Assembly: GCF_024362525.1 (NCBI RefSeq) | Contig: NZ_CP101459.1 | Coordinates: 620,001-684,000, forward strand | DNA: 64,000 bases | Reading direction: 5' to 3' | DNA from: Natrononativus amylolyticus | GTDB taxonomy: Archaea > Halobacteriota > Halobacteria > Halobacteriales > Natrialbaceae | Shown: piece after piece, positions 35,445 to 40,786 of the stretch | How the letters are laid out: every line of letters begins with the position of its first letter | How positions within the stretch are numbered: position 1 is the stretch's first letter | Notes under the pieces: model-generated | What the model saw: only the letters and a program-made list of their open reading frames with translations | What the model was told of the DNA's origin: nothing | Databases searched by the model: none | Program-made: the position numbers and the translations under genes

Positions 35445-35837
35445 TAGTAGATGTTAGAAATGATTGTTCACGTTAGGGATAGAGAGCTGATCAAGAACGG
35501 TATCGACCGCGGTTGTCAGCTCAGAAAGTGAGACAAAAAACCGGTTGCTTAGTGCTGATTGCAGCTGTCTCTAGCACTCTTCGACCGGATTGAGTTCGGG
35601 AGAGTACGCCGGTAACGTGACGAAGGCAAAGTCGTAACGGACCTGGCGGCCCGTGACGGCCGACGCCTGAAAGTACGGCGCTGCATCTAACACAACGATC
35701 AAATCATCTTCGAACTCTTGGCATAGCGAAAGAAGGAAATGTTTCGCGTGGGCGGCGGTGACGTACTCTTCGAATCGAGCGAAAAAGCGATCACCATCTT
35801 CGGTGATCGCGCCCAACAGACACGTCCAGTCGCGTTG
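35445..35837 (-). pseudogene. IS630 transposase fragment, copy 3
   Basis: The C-terminal part of the second transposase frame, from GQRDWTCLLGAITEDGD to the catalytic LNPVEEC. It has the same right inverted repeat as copy 1. After EEC the codon is TAG where copy 1 has TGG (Trp), while the later CAA that is a stop in copy 1 is intact here. The first frame, the left end and the start of the second frame are missing. The break at 35,837 falls within the hairpin-element region, so the insertion or its deletion removed the next small gene of the zinc-ribbon array. Confidence 0.75.
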
Positions 35838-35873
35838 CCCCTCTATCCCTCTCTGAGGGAGAATCAACACTAC
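35838..35873 (-). repeat. Array hairpin element E1 (orphaned)
   Basis: The most diverged member of a seven-copy family. On the minus strand it reads GTGTTGATTCTCCCTC, then GAGAGGGATAGAGGG. In other copies a gene starts a few bases later; here IS630 sequence begins instead, so its gene is lost. Confidence 0.6.
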
Positions 35874-35884
35874 TGAACAGGAGG

Positions 35885-36058
35885 TCACGGGGCGGTGGGA
35901 GGTCGATGGCGTGCCGGATCGTCACACGAGCAACCGAGTGCAGCGACGTCCCCACAGTTCGTACACTCGTAGATCGGAACGACGTCCGACCCACGCTGGG
36001 ACAGCGGGCCGTCTCTCGATCCCTCGTATCCACACTCAGCGCAGTGGGAGCGTACCAC
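35885..36058 (-). CDS. Zinc-ribbon small protein, 57 aa, GTG start
   Basis: Starting from GTG at 36058, the frame reads a small protein with CAECGYEG, then CTNCGD, then CSC: two CxxC knuckles spaced as a zinc ribbon with an extra Cys pair. It starts 8 bases after the stop of the previous gene, which fits translational coupling. A longer open frame in another register (start 36069) has no such pattern and is a shadow. Function is unknown; small zinc ribbons often bind nucleic acids or proteins. Confidence 0.6.
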   Translation of the reverse strand: MVRSHCAECGYEGSRDGPLSQRGSDVVPIYECTNCGDVAALGCSCDDPARHRPPTAP

Positions 36059-36065
36059 CGTTCGC

Positions 36066-36368
36066 TCACCCCGACCTCACTTGATGTCGATTGTGCCAGA
36101 CCTCAGCAGTGAACTCCTCGAGGGTGGTGAGCGCGTCACGGCGGCTTGACGCGTCGGCGGTCTCAGCAATATCGCCGTGGTGAAGATCGAGCGACAGTCC
36201 TGGCGCACTATCGTAGGTGCCGAGAAAACCACAGTGGCCTCTCGGAGGGCTGAGGGTCTGGACGTCTGGCTCGGCTCTGCACCCGATACTGGCTGCAAAC
36301 TGGGCGGTGATCGTCCCCTCGGCGTGAACTCTCATGAGGAGATCAGTAGCGATCCGGAGTTCAGTCAT
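36066..36368 (-). CDS. Hypothetical protein, 100 aa
   Basis: A soluble acidic protein beginning MTELRIATDLLMRVHAEG. Its ATG overlaps the stop of the preceding 51-residue gene (ATGA), so the pair is translationally coupled. A single Cys and no Cys pairs distinguish it from its zinc-ribbon neighbours. No domain was recognised. Confidence 0.6.
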   Translation of the reverse strand: MTELRIATDLLMRVHAEGTITAQFAASIGCRAEPDVQTLSPPRGHCGFLGTYDSAPGLSLDLHHGDIAETADASSRRDALTTLEEFTAEVWHNRHQVRSG

Positions 36369-36520
36369 GGTAGGGACCGTCCCTCCTCGTCGTTGATGCC
36401 CGCACTGGGGCCGTCTTGGGATGGTGTCTGTTCCTCGCTGTCCCCGTCCTCGACTCGAGTCTGTCGAGGGAGAGGGACGTCTTCGTCGAACGCGTGCTCG
36501 TATACGTCTAGGAATGGCAT
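36365..36520 (-). CDS. Hypothetical small acidic protein, 51 aa
   Basis: The frame MPFLDVYEHAFDEDVPLPRQ runs to a stop that overlaps the next start by four bases. It is strongly acidic and probably disordered in its second half (Asp, Glu, Gln, Ser and Pro rich). The array hairpin E2 lies about 40 bases before its ATG, farther than in other units. No family recognised. Confidence 0.55.
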   Translation of the reverse strand: MPFLDVYEHAFDEDVPLPRQTRVEDGDSEEQTPSQDGPSAGINDEEGRSLP

Positions 36521-36559
36521 GGTGATCAGTCTGGAGAGCGCGTATTGCTTGTTCGCGCT

Positions 36560-36594
36560 TCCTCCACCCCTCTACGAGGGTAGAACAACACCAC
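36560..36594 (-). repeat. Array hairpin element E2
   Basis: Minus-strand reading: GTGTTGTTCTACCCTC, a GTA loop, then GAGGGGTGGAGGAAG. It contains the conserved GTGTTGTTC and a GGAGG run. The following bases on the 5' side (toward 36,650) also resemble those beside E4. Confidence 0.7.
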
Positions 36595-36650
36595 GTGCGA
36601 TGTGTTCGTACGGACTGGCTGGGCTGGTGGAGTCACCCCACGGATTCAGA

Positions 36651-37049
36651 TCATCCCTCGTCCGTGGAGTAACTCTGCTCGTCCTCTGGCTCTCGATCCC
36701 ACGCTGGCTCCCACTCACAGTCGTCGTGAACGTGGTCTGCATACGCCGAAAACCAGTACCGGTCGTATCCATGTGCCTCTGTTCCGAGCCACTTTCCCGA
36801 CGCACGTGGCCCGTACTCGTCGGTGTCGGGAATTGGATCAGCCCCATCGACCGACCAGGAGTATGAGCTGTCGAACTCGGCGATGAACCCCTGATCACCT
36901 GCAGGTTCTCGAAGCGTGCATCGGGTGTTGCACGTCGTGCAAAACACCCCCTGGAACACGAGATGTACCCACTTGTCGGAGCCACAAACCGGACACTCCA
37001 CAACGTCGAACGCGCCAGTATACCGCTCTTCGATCTCGACGAGCGGCAT
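36651..37049 (-). CDS. Zinc-ribbon protein, 132 aa
   Basis: Residues 19-43 hold a zinc ribbon: ECPVCGS and then FCTTCNTRC. The C-terminal part is acidic and aromatic-rich (WLGTEAHGYDRYWFSAYADH). The ATG shares a base with the stop of the 32-residue gene before it (TGATG). This two-part layout, a CxxC ribbon plus a Trp/Tyr-rich tail, is seen in haloarchaeal hypothetical proteins from mobile regions. Function is unknown. Confidence 0.65.
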   Translation of the reverse strand: MPLVEIEERYTGAFDVVECPVCGSDKWVHLVFQGVFCTTCNTRCTLREPAGDQGFIAEFDSSYSWSVDGADPIPDTDEYGPRASGKWLGTEAHGYDRYWFSAYADHVHDDCEWEPAWDREPEDEQSYSTDEG

Positions 37050-37147
37050 CACTGCTCACCTCCGTTGTCGACGATCGTCGCGATTCCCGTCTCGATGCAC
37101 TGAATAGTCGGTGGCTGTGCTGCTGCCGTCTCGTTTGCGTGAGACAT
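37049..37147 (-). CDS. Very small protein, 32 aa
   Basis: From the ATG at 37147 the frame reads MSHANETAAAQPPTIQ and ends at TGATG, overlapping the next start. Hairpin E3 lies directly upstream with GGAGGG about 9 bases before the ATG, good Shine-Dalgarno spacing. It may act as a leader that couples translation of the 132-residue protein. Confidence 0.5.
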   Translation of the reverse strand: MSHANETAAAQPPTIQCIETGIATIVDNGGEQ

Positions 37148-37155
37148 CTCTGATA

Positions 37156-37185
37156 CCCTCCACCCCTCCAGGGGTGGAACAACAC
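37156..37185 (-). repeat. Array hairpin element E3
   Basis: Minus-strand reading: GTGTTGTTCCACCCCT, then GGAGGGGTGGAGGG, 9 bases before the ATG at 37147. The stem is CCACCCCT with AGGGGTGG. Confidence 0.75.
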
Positions 37186-37290
37186 TTGGCCTGATCACGT
37201 CGAAGATACAGGGGCTACCCAGAGTCCAGTACAATCGAATTCGAGAACACATCGTTCATACGAACTCGCTGCGGACCGAGTGATCGTCTC

Positions 37291-37544
37291 TCAGGTTGTC
37301 CGAACGAGCAGTTCCTTCTCGGTGAGTGTGACGTCGTACTCACCGATTGAGAATGCGACCGACACCGGCTCGCCAGTCGTGACGAGTCGATCGAGCGTTT
37401 CGGAATCAAGCGTGTCGGAGAGGACGATCCCGAGGGTTGGTCCCAGCTCGGTCGATGGGCAGTTCTCGAGCCTCGCGATCGCTTCGATCAGTGCGATGCT
37501 GGCGGCGTTTTCGACCACTCGTATTCGACTTGTCTAGTTGCCAT
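37291..37544 (-). pseudogene. HalOD1-domain gene with an apparent frameshift
   Basis: From ATG at 37544 the frame reads MATRQVEYEWSKTPPAS and then hits a stop. In another frame the protein continues IALIEAIARLENC and FSIGEYDVTLTEKELL to 37291. Joined, the two halves form a standard haloarchaeal HalOD1 output domain (about 85 residues). One base appears to be missing near 37,495-37,500. An alternative is that translation starts with GTG at 37518 and the protein is merely short. The first possibility is favoured because EYEWS-TPP is the usual start of the domain. Confidence 0.6.
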
Positions 37545-37698
37545 GATTCACCTTCACTGTTAACCCCGCCCCAGCTCCTGCCAATCTCGCCTGCTGGGTT
37601 CGACAGTTCGGACAAGCATGAAGCGTTCCAGTGTTGTCTGCAAACACACGCTTATACTGTTCTGTAACGTGACTGCCACAGTTCGAACACTCAGGCAT
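37534..37698 (-). CDS. DUF7563-like zinc-ribbon protein, 54 aa
   Basis: The frame reads MPECSNCGSHVTEQYKRVFAD and then ACPNCRTQQ: two CxxC knuckles about 25 residues apart. This is a widespread haloarchaeal one-domain zinc ribbon that starts with P-E-C-x-N-C-G and V-T-x-x-Y-x-R-V-F. Its start follows the stop of the 57-residue gene by two bases, and its end overlaps the HalOD1 start. Function is unknown. Confidence 0.7.
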   Translation of the reverse strand: MPECSNCGSHVTEQYKRVFADNTGTLHACPNCRTQQARLAGAGAGLTVKVNHGN

Positions 37699-37700
37699 CG

Positions 37701-37874
37701 TCAGGCCCCCACGTCCGTCTGCTCGTAGACGGCGATCGTCGCCTCGAGTTCGGCGATCGAGTCTGCGAGGGTCAACGGCTCGGCCAGGTGCTCCTCGACC
37801 GTTCGCAGATTGGCCAGAACTGCTTCGAGTTCGGCCTGTACTCGGTCGTCAGGCCATCCAGTGGACTCACTCAT
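37701..37874 (-). CDS. Small helical protein, 57 aa
   Basis: MSESTGWPDDRVQAELEAVL and the following residues form two amphipathic helices rich in Leu, Glu and Ala with heptad spacing, suggesting a helical hairpin or coiled-coil dimer. The ATG shares its A with the stop of the previous gene (TGATG), so it is translationally coupled. No known family. Confidence 0.6.
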   Translation of the reverse strand: MSESTGWPDDRVQAELEAVLANLRTVEEHLAEPLTLADSIAELEATIAVYEQTDVGA

Positions 37875-38194
37875 CACGACTCACCCTCCGGGCAGCCGGG
37901 CGCATGCGGCAGTTTGTCCTGTCCACCAAGTTCGACCAGCAGCTCACGTTTGCAGTACCTACACCGGATGTACGCCTTCCCGCCCTGTTCCGGCGGTTCG
38001 ATATGTCGCGTGTACGGCGGCCTCTCGGAATCGGTCCGGATGGTCTCGGTGGCTGCGGTCCCGCCATCGGACACCACCCGCTCTGTGCAAACAGTCAGTT
38101 CGGCTGCTGCACGCAGACGCAGCTCTCTGCCCGTGTCGGTTTCGTAGTAGTCAGCTCGCTGTACCACTCGGTCGATGGTTCTAACCTGTTGCAT
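37874..38194 (-). CDS. Putative zinc-binding protein, 106 aa
   Basis: Begins MQQVRTIDRVVQRADYYETD. The C-terminal third has CRYCKREL followed by HAPGCPEGE, so a CxxC and a H-x3-C pair could bind one zinc. Hairpin E4 lies directly upstream with its GGAGGG about 10 bases before the ATG. Homologues with the same N-terminal D-R-V and C-terminal HAPGCP pattern are, I believe, common hypothetical proteins of haloarchaea. Confidence 0.65.
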   Translation of the reverse strand: MQQVRTIDRVVQRADYYETDTGRELRLRAAAELTVCTERVVSDGGTAATETIRTDSERPPYTRHIEPPEQGGKAYIRCRYCKRELLVELGGQDKLPHAPGCPEGES

Positions 38195-38203
38195 CGGTTC
38201 AAA

Positions 38204-38236
38204 CCCTCCACCCCTCTCGAGGGTGAGAACAACACC
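38204..38236 (-). repeat. Array hairpin element E4
   Basis: Minus-strand reading: GTGTTGTTCTCACCCTC, then GAGAGGGGTGGAGGG, ending 10 bases before the ATG at 38194. Conserved bases continue for some 20 positions on the 5' side (CACCGCATGTG), similar to E2. Confidence 0.75.
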
Positions 38237-38278
38237 ACATGCGGTGGGTTCGTGCCGACGCTAGTCGGTTCGGCAAGG

Positions 38279-38659
38279 TTACCCCACACCTTCGGACTCG
38301 ATTTCATGCGTGGGGTAACTCACAATGCTGGCGGACTCGCTGGGGGCCTGCGCCCTAGTCTGCAGTTCGCGAATCCGCTGTGCGTGGCGTGTAGCCTCGA
38401 GAACGGACGTTCGGATCGCGACTGCAACCCGATGTTTGCACGCGCCCTGGTGGTGTTCGTCTGCCGGGCACGTACAGCTGTGCGGCAGGCCGTCCTCGAT
38501 CGTAACCAGATACTCGTGATCCTCCGGATTCGCATGGCTGATATTGCGAGCGAGGACGCCCTGCGAGACAAGTTCGAACTCGAAGGCTTCGTACTGGGCG
38601 CGTCGGAGCGTCCGCTGGGTCGGTTCAAGTCGCTCGAGTGGGTGTGCTGATGGTGACAT
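38279..38659 (-). CDS. SWIM zinc-finger protein, 126 aa
   Basis: The central part has HSCTCPADEHHQGACKHRVAV, the C-x-C-xn-C-x-H arrangement of a SWIM zinc finger, which binds DNA or proteins. The N-terminal RTLRRAQYEAFEFELV is a typical lead-in of haloarchaeal SWIM proteins. A related but broken SWIM gene lies at 45.5-46.1 kb. No hairpin element separates it from the gene before it (41 bases). Confidence 0.75.
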   Translation of the reverse strand: MSPSAHPLERLEPTQRTLRRAQYEAFEFELVSQGVLARNISHANPEDHEYLVTIEDGLPHSCTCPADEHHQGACKHRVAVAIRTSVLEATRHAQRIRELQTRAQAPSESASIVSYPTHEIESEGVG

Positions 38660-38700
38660 CGATCAGGTCAACTGCGGCTAGACTGGTCGATCGTGTCGAG

Positions 38701-38922
38701 TTACGCACTCTCGCATTCCGAGCAAATCAGTTGAACACCGAGGTCACAGGCAGTTTCACAGCTCTGGGTCGGAACAAGTCCGAACTTCCCACAGTACTCA
38801 CAGCTCGTGTTGGTGTGACCAGGAGCGTCGAACACGTCGAAGCGGGTACGTTTGACGGCATTATCAGTCTCGGTGATGAACTCAACGGCGATTGGTATGT
38901 TGGTCCGACTAGCAGTTTGCAT
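38701..38922 (-). CDS. Zinc-ribbon protein, 73 aa
   Basis: From ATG at 38922, directly after hairpin E5. The Cys pattern is CEYCGKFG, then CETACD, then CSEC near the end, so probably one zinc ribbon plus one extra Cys pair. The middle GLVPTQSCETA aligns with GLVTTLACEEA of the protein at 39570-39797, so the two are paralogues within the array. The open frame runs upstream to 38949, but those bases belong to the hairpin element. Confidence 0.65.
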   Translation of the reverse strand: MQTASRTNIPIAVEFITETDNAVKRTRFDVFDAPGHTNTSCEYCGKFGLVPTQSCETACDLGVQLICSECESA

Positions 38923-38931
38923 TGTTTTCAA

Positions 38932-38963
38932 TCTCTCTACCCCTCCCAAGGGGTGAACAACGC
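38932..38963 (-). repeat. Array hairpin element E5
   Basis: Minus-strand reading: GCGTTGTTCACCCCTTG, then GGAGGGGTAGAGAG, about 9 bases before the ATG at 38922. The loop bases differ from the other copies while the stem (ACCCCT with AGGGGT) is kept. Confidence 0.75.
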
Positions 38964-38996
38964 TACCGGCTGTGCGTTCGTCGCAAGGCTTTCGAC

Positions 38997-39464
38997 TCAG
39001 CGGATTGGCTTCGGCCCCCGCGACGAGAAGGTGATCTCGCCGTTCTCTCGCTCGTCTTCCGTCTGCAGGTTGTATTGCTCCCCAAGGTCACTGCAGACGG
39101 TTTCTGCGACCTCGAGTGCTTCCTCGAGCGTTGGGGCTTCGGCTTCGATCGATCCCCAGTCCGGATTTGCGTTCGGATAGACGGCCACTTGGTACGTGTC
39201 AACGAAACAGTCGGGCCAGCTCGACGATGGCTGGTACACCGCTGTCGGTGCGATCGTTACTTCCATCGGCGTCGAGAATACTGCCTTACCCACCTCGTCG
39301 ACGATGAACCGAACCAACGAGAACACACACTGCCGCCGACCCAGTGCCCACGATCGGACGCTACCCTGCTCACAATCCCATACCGGGAATCGTTCCTCGA
39401 TGCTCTCCGACGCCTCGAGTACCTGTGCGGTCGCCAGTCGACTGACCGATTCGTGTATCGACAT
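38997..39464 (-). CDS. Hypothetical protein, 155 aa
   Basis: Begins MSIHESVSRLATAQVLEASE. The C-terminal part (APTLEEALEVAETVCSDL) is helical. Cys residues are scattered (Cys31, 45, 85, 128) without CxxC spacing, so it is not a zinc ribbon. It starts directly after hairpin E6. No family recognised. Confidence 0.6.
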   Translation of the reverse strand: MSIHESVSRLATAQVLEASESIEERFPVWDCEQGSVRSWALGRRQCVFSLVRFIVDEVGKAVFSTPMEVTIAPTAVYQPSSSWPDCFVDTYQVAVYPNANPDWGSIEAEAPTLEEALEVAETVCSDLGEQYNLQTEDERENGEITFSSRGPKPIR

Positions 39465-39472
39465 CTCTTGAA

Positions 39473-39506
39473 CCCTCTACCCCTCTCAGAGGGGCGAACA
39501 ACACCA
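39473..39506 (-). repeat. Array hairpin element E6
   Basis: Minus-strand reading: GTGTTGTTCGCCCCTC, TGA, then GAGGGGTAGAGGG, about 9 bases before the ATG at 39464. This copy is closest to the consensus and has a perfect CCCCTC/GAGGGG stem. Confidence 0.8.
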
Positions 39507-39569
39507 CTGGGCGGATGCATTGTCGTGTCCTTCTCGTTCGCCGATCCGCCGTGGCCCGTGTCGCCGATC

Positions 39570-39797
39570 TCACCCACACTTCGAACAGACGAGGTCGACG
39601 TCCCGGATTGTGGCTTCCTCGCAAGCCAGCGTCGTGACCAGACCGTATGTCCCACAGCTGTCGTACCTCGTTCCAGAGCGGGCCGCAAGAGCCGGCAGTT
39701 CACCGTGAGGATCGTGATCGGGTTTCTGGAACAATGGATCGTCTCTGGTTTTGAACTCAACAACAATCGACTCTGACTGGCTATCTGGTACTGGCAT
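39570..39797 (-). CDS. Zinc-ribbon-like protein, 75 aa
   Basis: From ATG at 39797. The C-terminal half has SCGTYGLVTTLACEEA and then CSKC at the very end. Compared with its paralogue at 38701-38922, the first Cys of the leading CxxC is Asp/Ser (YDSCGT), so zinc binding may be weakened. It is the first gene of the array in the direction of transcription. Confidence 0.6.
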   Translation of the reverse strand: MPVPDSQSESIVVEFKTRDDPLFQKPDHDPHGELPALAARSGTRYDSCGTYGLVTTLACEEATIRDVDLVCSKCG

Positions 39798-39803
39798 CTT
39801 TGA

Positions 39804-39837
39804 TCCCTCTACCCTGCTGAGAGGGGCAAACAACCCC
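39804..39837 (-). repeat. Array hairpin element E7
   Basis: Minus-strand reading: GGGTTGTTTGCCCCTC, then AGCAGGGTAGAGGG, 7 bases before the ATG at 39797. It is slightly diverged in the 3' half of the stem. It is the first element in the direction of transcription. Confidence 0.7.
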
Positions 39838-40027
39838 ACGATCGTGTCGAACTGAATGTTGCGTCAATCGTGGACTGATGAGTTTGTGATCTCCTGCTCA
39901 GACGTCTGAGAACGACTAGTTTCTACTTTCATGTGCGAGAGACAAGGCGCGATTGTCGCACAAGTCAGAGCGTGATCAACGCGGAGGAGGAAATGCTCAG
40001 TACACGTTGTCCTAATCGCAGGTTGGC

Positions 40028-40507
40028 CTACCCATCAATGAGTGTGAGTTTCTCACGCTTTTCTGTCGGGATTGGATTGACGTATTTCACATCTTCGCCG
40101 TCGCAAAGGTCGTCGAAATCACTGTCGGTAGTGATCAAGTAATCGGCATCATACGACCGCGCGAGCGCTAAGATGAACGAGTCGTACACGTCGTGATTTT
40201 TCTCGGCGCTAATATCGTACGCTTCGAGAAGCGTCGACTCGGTGGCGCTCACGATTCGCGCTGGGCTTCGTACGAGCGATTGAATCGCATTGCGAGCATC
40301 AACAGTGTTCACACCAAAATTGCCCGTCATAAGATACTGTGCTCGTAACGGGTAGTAATCGAATACGAGTAAGACGTTCGGTCCATCAAGTGTGTTCTGG
40401 ATCCACGGATATACATCATCATACGCGGGATGGTTATCGGTCAGCCCGATCGCAAGAACGTTTACATCAGTGAGGATCGTCACCTCGGTCGGGAAAGAAT
40501 CAGGCAT
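40028..40507 (-). CDS. PIN-domain toxin, VapC-like
   Basis: A 159-residue PIN-domain protein. The acidic residues of the metal-dependent RNase site are present: Asp in ILTDVNVLAIG, Glu in STLLEAYDIS, Asp in HDVYDSFILALAR and Asp in TTDSDFDDL. It probably cleaves RNA when free of its antitoxin. Its gene follows the AbrB-type gene by 9 bases on the same strand, the usual antitoxin-toxin order. The pair would stabilise the surrounding accessory DNA. Confidence 0.8.
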   Translation of the reverse strand: MPDSFPTEVTILTDVNVLAIGLTDNHPAYDDVYPWIQNTLDGPNVLLVFDYYPLRAQYLMTGNFGVNTVDARNAIQSLVRSPARIVSATESTLLEAYDISAEKNHDVYDSFILALARSYDADYLITTDSDFDDLCDGEDVKYVNPIPTEKREKLTLIDG

Positions 40508-40516
40508 TCGGCTTCT

Positions 40517-40786
40517 TTACCGATTCATTGGCCCGAAGAGCGTTTCTCCAGCATCAGTCGGTGTGGAGTTCTCCCAGTTATCCCGCTCTGCTGTTGCTGT
40601 CTTCAGTTTCGAACTCGGCTTCGGGTTGACCTCGAGGACGGATCCAATGAGGGTAGCGGGGATCTCATCGTTCGATTCGATTCCGAGTCGCTCTCGAATC
40701 TCTTTCGGGAGCGTTACCCGTCCTCTGTCATCCACTTTGAGTGTGAGTTCTTCTCCGTGGTTCGCTTCAAACGAGGTCTTTCCCAT
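40517..40786 (-). CDS. AbrB-type antitoxin, VapB-like
   Basis: An 89-residue protein with an AbrB/SpoVT swapped-hairpin DNA-binding domain (LTLKVDDRGRVTLPKEIRERLGIE). The C-terminal tail (KPSSKLKTATAERDNWENS) would bind and inhibit the PIN toxin encoded just downstream. It probably also represses its own operon. Confidence 0.8.
   Translation of the reverse strand: MGKTSFEANHGEELTLKVDDRGRVTLPKEIRERLGIESNDEIPATLIGSVLEVNPKPSSKLKTATAERDNWENSTPTDAGETLFGPMNR

Follow-up and report, generated by a model that had tools for sequence, protein, structure and literature searches.

The lambda nut site combines a boxA with a boxB hairpin. In plasmids of the pLS20 family, the conserved sequences EGeRS1 and EGeRS2 lie upstream of many genes, including the anti-restriction gene ardC; EGeRS1 is 400 to 600 base pairs (bp) long and contains many inverted repeats, and EGeRS2 is part of repressor-controlled promoters (PMC8708921). 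Here, we analyzed a repeated element in a 64,000-nucleotide (nt) stretch of Natrononativus amylolyticus DNA (contig NZ_CP101459.1, positions 620,001 to 684,000; the whole stretch is called the window below), which contains seven copies, E1 to E7, on the minus strand. The element resembles the pLS20 sequences in that it is repeated upstream of genes and marks what would be a shared regulon, an ArdC-like gene included. It differs from them in being archaeal and a single hairpin of ~40 nt, located between cistrons and without a promoter signal. From sequence comparison, we propose that it may be a cis-acting leader RNA through which the translation (or processing) of single cistrons in plasmid operons is controlled, a reading to which we give about an even chance of being correct.

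Three other known systems offer partial parallels. Like translational riboswitches and leaders that sequester a Shine-Dalgarno (SD) sequence, the element has an SD-like arm that can be hairpinned or free, with mutually exclusive hairpins in one class of copies; unlike riboswitches, it has no visible ligand domain. Its conserved box, single-stranded and upstream of a hairpin whose loop is also conserved, recalls the lambda nut site. However, nut is located near the operon start, while the haloarchaeal element stands before every separated cistron, and we know of no archaeal N-like protein or boxA. The Frpo/ssi single-strand promoters of leading regions (PMC11541004) are likewise hairpins ahead of co-directional genes, some of which have anti-restriction functions. 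In comparison, the haloarchaeal element is far smaller and lacks promoter boxes, and it is the coding strand that folds.

The original prediction placed seven copies on the minus strand, six of them before the gene starts at 39797, 39464, 38922, 38194, 37147, and 36520 and one without a gene. Direct reading of the minus strand between 35.5 and 40.2 kb recovered all the copies (7/7) at these places and before these starts. In a MAFFT alignment of E1 to E7, the GTTGTT box and the G-runs were almost invariant. The entire 3.99-Mb genome was searched with R1, a sequence-only covariance model made from 45 copies of the element. Exactly E1 to E7 were returned at E ≤ 0.0033, and the next-best score had E = 0.44. 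A strict pattern matched five times genome-wide, always inside the window, and the reversed pattern did not match at all; occurrence by chance is therefore excluded.

E1 (39798 to 39839, box GTTGTTT starting at 39834) is matched by R1 and consists of the box, the C-arm, the loop CAGCAGGGT, and the outer arm AGAGGG; a 7-nt spacer separates it from ATG 39797 of a 75–amino acid (aa) gene. E2 (39465 to 39507, box starting at 39502) reads GTTGTTC-G-CCCCTC-TGA-GAGGGGTAGAGGG and is followed by ATG 39464 of a 155-aa gene. E3 (38923 to 38966, box starting at 38961) precedes ATG 38922, the start of a 73-aa protein with a weak TFIIB zinc-ribbon resemblance. E4 (38195 to 38238, box starting at 38233) precedes ATG 38194 of a 106-aa gene, and E5 (37148 to 37187, box starting at 37183) precedes ATG 37147 of a short open reading frame (ORF) joined to a DUF7567 gene. 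E6 (36521 to 36594, box starting at 36589) forms an extended leader before ATG 36520. It had been described as a copy with a longer gap; the gap is indeed longer, but it holds a second hairpin at 36533 to 36565 (GGAGGAAGCGCG...CGCGCTCTCC), whose 5′ arm shares bases with the first hairpin's 3′ arm. This second hairpin is compensated in relatives and typical of the E6 gene family. E7 (35838 to 35873, box GTTGATT starting at 35868) has no gene, as had been noted, and adjoins an IS630 transposase fragment (35500 to 35840, minus strand). Homology of E7 to intact relatives ends at ~35840, where IS630 sequence starts, and elsewhere the same family has both a leader of the far type described below and a gene.

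The U-rich box is followed by a C-rich arm (P), an inner GGGGT, and an outer arm (Q2; GAGGG in the window), and P could pair with either of the latter. The two pairings were compared in a register-free test in which arms were swapped between copies (20,000 permutations). In a Natrialbaceae-based set of 35 dissimilar copies, P:Q2 gave z = −5.3 (0/20,000) and P:inner z = −3.3 (25/20,000); flanks gave no signal. In a class-wide set, the values were −6.5 (0/20,000) and −1.95, respectively. With one copy per protein cluster (n = 19), P:Q2 ranged from −5.5 to −6.5 (0/20,000) and P:inner from −1.1 to −2.1, again with no flank signal; since the clusters, which were built from shared tripeptides, merged many families, this version of the test is conservative. 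The z-scores thus favor P:Q2 as the stem that generalizes, with GGGGT in its loop.

Other copies have stems that are unrelated in sequence and loops that are related. Stems such as GCCCCC/GGGGGC, TGGGGC/GCCCCA, AGGGGC/GCCCCT, CGTCCCGC/GCGGGACG, and GCGCCGGC/GCCGGCGC front different gene families, and the loop remains GGGGTG-like or GACTGA/GGCGGA-like. As expected of a structured leader, helices are kept by coordinated changes, as seen both in the arm-swap tests and in the unrelated stems. In element-bearing plasmid loci, ATG-proximal hexamers were followed by a perfect hairpin in 46% of cases for GTTTTT and in 22% for GTTGTT, compared to 3 to 10% for seven control hexamers. Pairing between the U-box and the loop, inspected by eye, was inconsistent. 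These results revise the original prediction in several respects. The stem had been drawn as CCCCTC/GAGGGGT, whereas the C-run coevolves more with the outer GAGGG, and GAGGGGT is mainly loop. The stem had been thought to be kept while the loop changes; class-wide, the reverse is true, with stem sequences varying and the GGGGTG-type loop retained. The SD-like run, taken as a feature uniting all copies, is replaced class-wide by, e.g., GCGGGG, GCCGGCGC, or GCCCCA.

In gene families whose ATG lies ~36 to 42 nt downstream, a second hairpin is present, and its 5′ arm overlaps Q2. Across 10 such far leaders, Q2 coevolved with the downstream segment (z about −5.7, 0/20,000), and P did not. Because the second hairpin reuses the Q2 arm, it and P:Q2 are mutually exclusive. 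An either/or arrangement of this kind is apparent at L060:10421-10472, where one arm is repeated thrice before the ATG (GCGCCGGC - GCCGGCGC - GCGCCGGC). Non–Watson-Crick pairs were counted in 22 second hairpins found by a rule that treats every mismatch alike: 19 were G.U, none were A.C, and 5 were other. Many of the G.U pairs were inherited within a few families (the E6, ArdC-like, and DUF6735 families), and by our estimate there were six or seven independent G.U events, alike in direction. The occurrence of G.U without A.C indicates that it is probably the coding-strand transcript that folds, as expected of mRNA.

The location of the element relative to genes was assessed with 173 unique copies from the window and related loci, using the distance from GGGGTRGAGG to the ATG of an ORF of at least 35 codons. 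The distribution was bimodal, with 88 copies at 8 to 11 nt (the near class) and 32 at 36 to 42 nt. Fifty-six percent of copies lay within 4 to 15 nt of an ATG, as opposed to 6% of random positions, and the spacing was constant inside each gene family (9, 11, 39, or 41 nt). The element is thus a site directly upstream of the start codons of many genes, another expected property of a structured leader. These data also agree with the earlier view that one shared element stands ahead of small genes and that its spacing tracks gene starts rather than a fixed period.

In the window, the copies belong to a co-directional array of 13 small genes (35885 to 39797, minus strand), whose units mostly open with an element. 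The array encodes zinc-ribbon–like, SWIM, DUF7563, HalOD1, and DUF7567 proteins as well as proteins of no assigned family; PADLOC and PHROGs searches with the array proteins returned a weak SWIM-domain match alone. With the start codons chosen, on which gap lengths depend, an element is found at all six gaps of at least 74 nt before array genes (230, 105, 74, 84, 143, and 130 nt), and the seven gaps no longer than 41 nt (41, 15, 7, 2, −1, −1, and −4 nt) have none. TATA-like motifs occurred in the 60 nt upstream of 1.7% of elements, compared to 2.2% for random positions and 10% for genes with a divergent neighbor; in view of this lack of enrichment, a TATA promoter was rejected. An intrinsic terminator was rejected as well, since T-runs are few in the 20 nt past the element (TTTT in 11/173 copies, TTTTT in 3/173). 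On the sequence side, this disposes of the possibility, raised with the original prediction, that each copy is only a terminator. With no TATA enrichment and few T-runs, the array is best viewed as one operon or a few, with units opened by the element.

A covariance search had been suggested as a check, with an absence of hits outside the locus counting against the element; many matches were found elsewhere. The strict pattern matched in 7 of 391 genomes of the class, with no matches for the reversed pattern, and the matches outside the window were confined to Natrialbaceae. Matches at E ≤ 0.01 were present in 33 of 125 Natrialbaceae genomes, up to 41, 34, and 30 per genome; carriers include Natrialba, Natrinema zhouii plasmids, Natronococcus, and Saliphagus. 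Recognizable cousins were seen on plasmids of other haloarchaea that share array genes, i.e., in Halococcus dombrowskii (CGTTTTTCTCACCCGAGAGGGGTAGAGG), Haloarcula marismortui pNG600, and Natrinema pJ7-1. A strict pattern for this broader form (GTTKTTC, a hairpin, and a GGGGTG-type loop shortly before an ATG) had matches in 68 of 194 genomes of the class, and 32 of the 65 genera sampled, or about half, were represented; the reversed pattern never matched. Since the pattern requires CCC and GGG and misses other stems, this count is too low. Most of the matches were on contigs beyond the first, and some were on contig 1. Neither the window region nor any of three related plasmid loci matched an Rfam model at E ≤ 1, and we found no description of the element in open-license papers. 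It appears to represent a widespread, undescribed family of RNA leaders. A virus-borne element was also considered and set aside: the element pattern matched once in a 13.6-kb IMG/VR contig (L044:5856-5880), and no DUF7567 was found among phage records.

How could such a leader act? In the proposed scheme, every separated cistron, or group of cistrons, in the long operons of haloarchaeal plasmids would begin with a leader. A single-stranded U-rich box, GUUKUUC, would be followed by a hairpin that is free in sequence but has a conserved GGGGUG-like motif in its loop, and then either by a start codon ~9 nt on, with an SD-like 3′ arm, or by a second hairpin that reuses this arm. Translation initiation would be controlled by the 3′ arm being either locked by the C-arm or free. 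The U-box and the loop would serve as the contact for one trans-acting factor, a protein or the ribosome, so that all cistrons respond together. In Haloferax volcanii, SD motifs do not drive initiation at 5′ untranslated regions (5′-UTRs), and most distal operon genes that lie close to the preceding gene overlap or abut it (PMC3986360). Widely spaced cistrons therefore need another entry signal, and the element may be what lets them be translated. The earlier suggestion that each gene is translationally controlled in the same way thus stands in part: posttranscriptional control is likely, but SD is not the common feature.

Several observations weigh against the leader reading. In fixed-column covariation analysis of an R1-based alignment, neither stem rose above shuffles; we relied on the register-free tests because variable loop length probably displaces the arms in fixed columns. 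Two MAFFT alignments of orthologous leaders were kept out of the counts, since some of their rows were out of register. Hairpin 1 shows no G.U excess (6 G.U versus 13 A.C), fold z-scores are equal on the sense and antisense strands, and minimum-energy z-scores of individual copies are modest. The sole pointer to a two-state switch is complementarity. For a riboswitch, we found no conserved ligand-binding core, with conservation limited to the box of 7 nt and a short motif in the loop.

The main rival is a processing or stability site, at which operon RNA would be cut at each U-box/hairpin and the hairpin would shield the new 5′ end. A hairpin with a U-rich box at every wide intercistronic gap and the lack of promoters and terminators in between fit this explanation, and action on RNA agrees with the G.U result. 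Yet the ATG spacing fixed by family (9, 11, 39, and 41 nt) and the SD-like 3′ arm of the near class indicate the start codon, and we regard a processing site as possible but considerably less probable than a translational leader.

We consider it unlikely that the element acts in transcription as DNA, with GTTKTTC in place of TATA in a plasmid-specific promoter and the palindrome as operator. GTTGTTC does start ~37 nt ahead of the ATG in the near class, and TFB-like plasmid genes are found near some arrays. However, stem sequence is free, loop length is variable, and there is no AT-rich box; moreover, the second hairpin is of RNA type and on the sense strand, and at least in far-type leaders this stretch is therefore probably transcribed. 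Very unlikely, in our view, is a single-stranded DNA promoter similar to Frpo/ssi that is active as the conjugating strand enters the recipient. Such a promoter would be in keeping with co-directional arrays, with the element ahead of genes for an ArdC-like protein, a C5 methyltransferase, and DpdA, and with the MPF_T typing of some of these plasmids and the TrbL/VirB6-like and HerA-like proteins encoded by one. But it would require folding of the template strand, whereas it is in the coding strand that G.U pairs are in excess; hairpin 1 is just 5 to 9 bp long, there is no promoter box, and the typed plasmids have no recognized relaxase (“non-mobilizable”). An integron-like recombination site of a cassette array, brought to mind by a short hairpin repeated between small genes, is disfavored and close to negligible, since gene-family order, where it was read by eye, looked conserved from one plasmid to another (with families gained, lost, or duplicated but not shuffled), ATG spacing is family specific, and arms differ among copies.

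If the element is a leader RNA, the genes it serves elsewhere bear on its role. It leads an ArdC-like gene (PHROG anti-restriction, 1.7e-8; Pfam ArdcN, 0.0028, under the curated cut-off), a C5 DNA methyltransferase (8.2e-34, L032:3061-4689), DpdA (6.1e-17, L114:2395-3225), a weakly Mom-like protein (0.0067, under the cut-off, L043:4908-5699), and a DUF6735 gene (2.3e-83). DpdA, the Mom-like protein, and the C5 methyltransferase may represent archaeal counter-restriction genes. The functions listed here pertain to DNA entry and counter-restriction, although just a part of the families served has a known function. An establishment regulon is recognized by a shared sequence ahead of anti-restriction genes, and here such a sequence precedes the ArdC-like gene, the C5 methyltransferase, and DpdA. 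By analogy with pLS20 plasmids, we suggest that the element may mark an establishment regulon. More tentatively, and with a rather low probability, one plasmid-encoded factor could read the leaders and switch on the whole regulon posttranscriptionally. If so, archaea would have an RNA-controlled entry regulon comprising anti-restriction, DNA modification, and dozens of small genes of unassigned function, and the leader alone would flag uncharacterized genes as counter-defense candidates. Structured cis-regulatory RNAs known from archaea are few, and this leader would be common to tens of genes in some genomes. The element groups uncharacterized small genes of plasmids with genes for anti-restriction and DNA modification, providing a sequence handle for archaeal counter-defense genes, and offers a test of spaced-cistron translation in organisms that do not use SD at 5′-UTRs.

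An ArdC-like protein above the cut-off (Pfam, 4.1e-5) is encoded by Natrinema pJ7-1; it was not counted among the element-led genes. This plasmid (L162/L165/L166) also encodes a TrbL/VirB6-like protein, a weakly HerA-like ATPase, a primase, PolB, ExoVII, and BREX-5, and is possibly a conjugative element without a recognized relaxase.

Two further observations concern the surroundings of the array. Relatives of the window's DUF7567 gene (36651 to 37049; Pfam, 3e-51) were found on 89 plasmid records that span many genera of haloarchaea, and it seems to be a plasmid gene of wide distribution and unassigned function. Directly upstream of the array, a PIN-domain/AbrB-type toxin-antitoxin pair is encoded on the minus strand (40028 to 40786); plasmids of Natrialba magadii and Haloarcula carry close matches to it.

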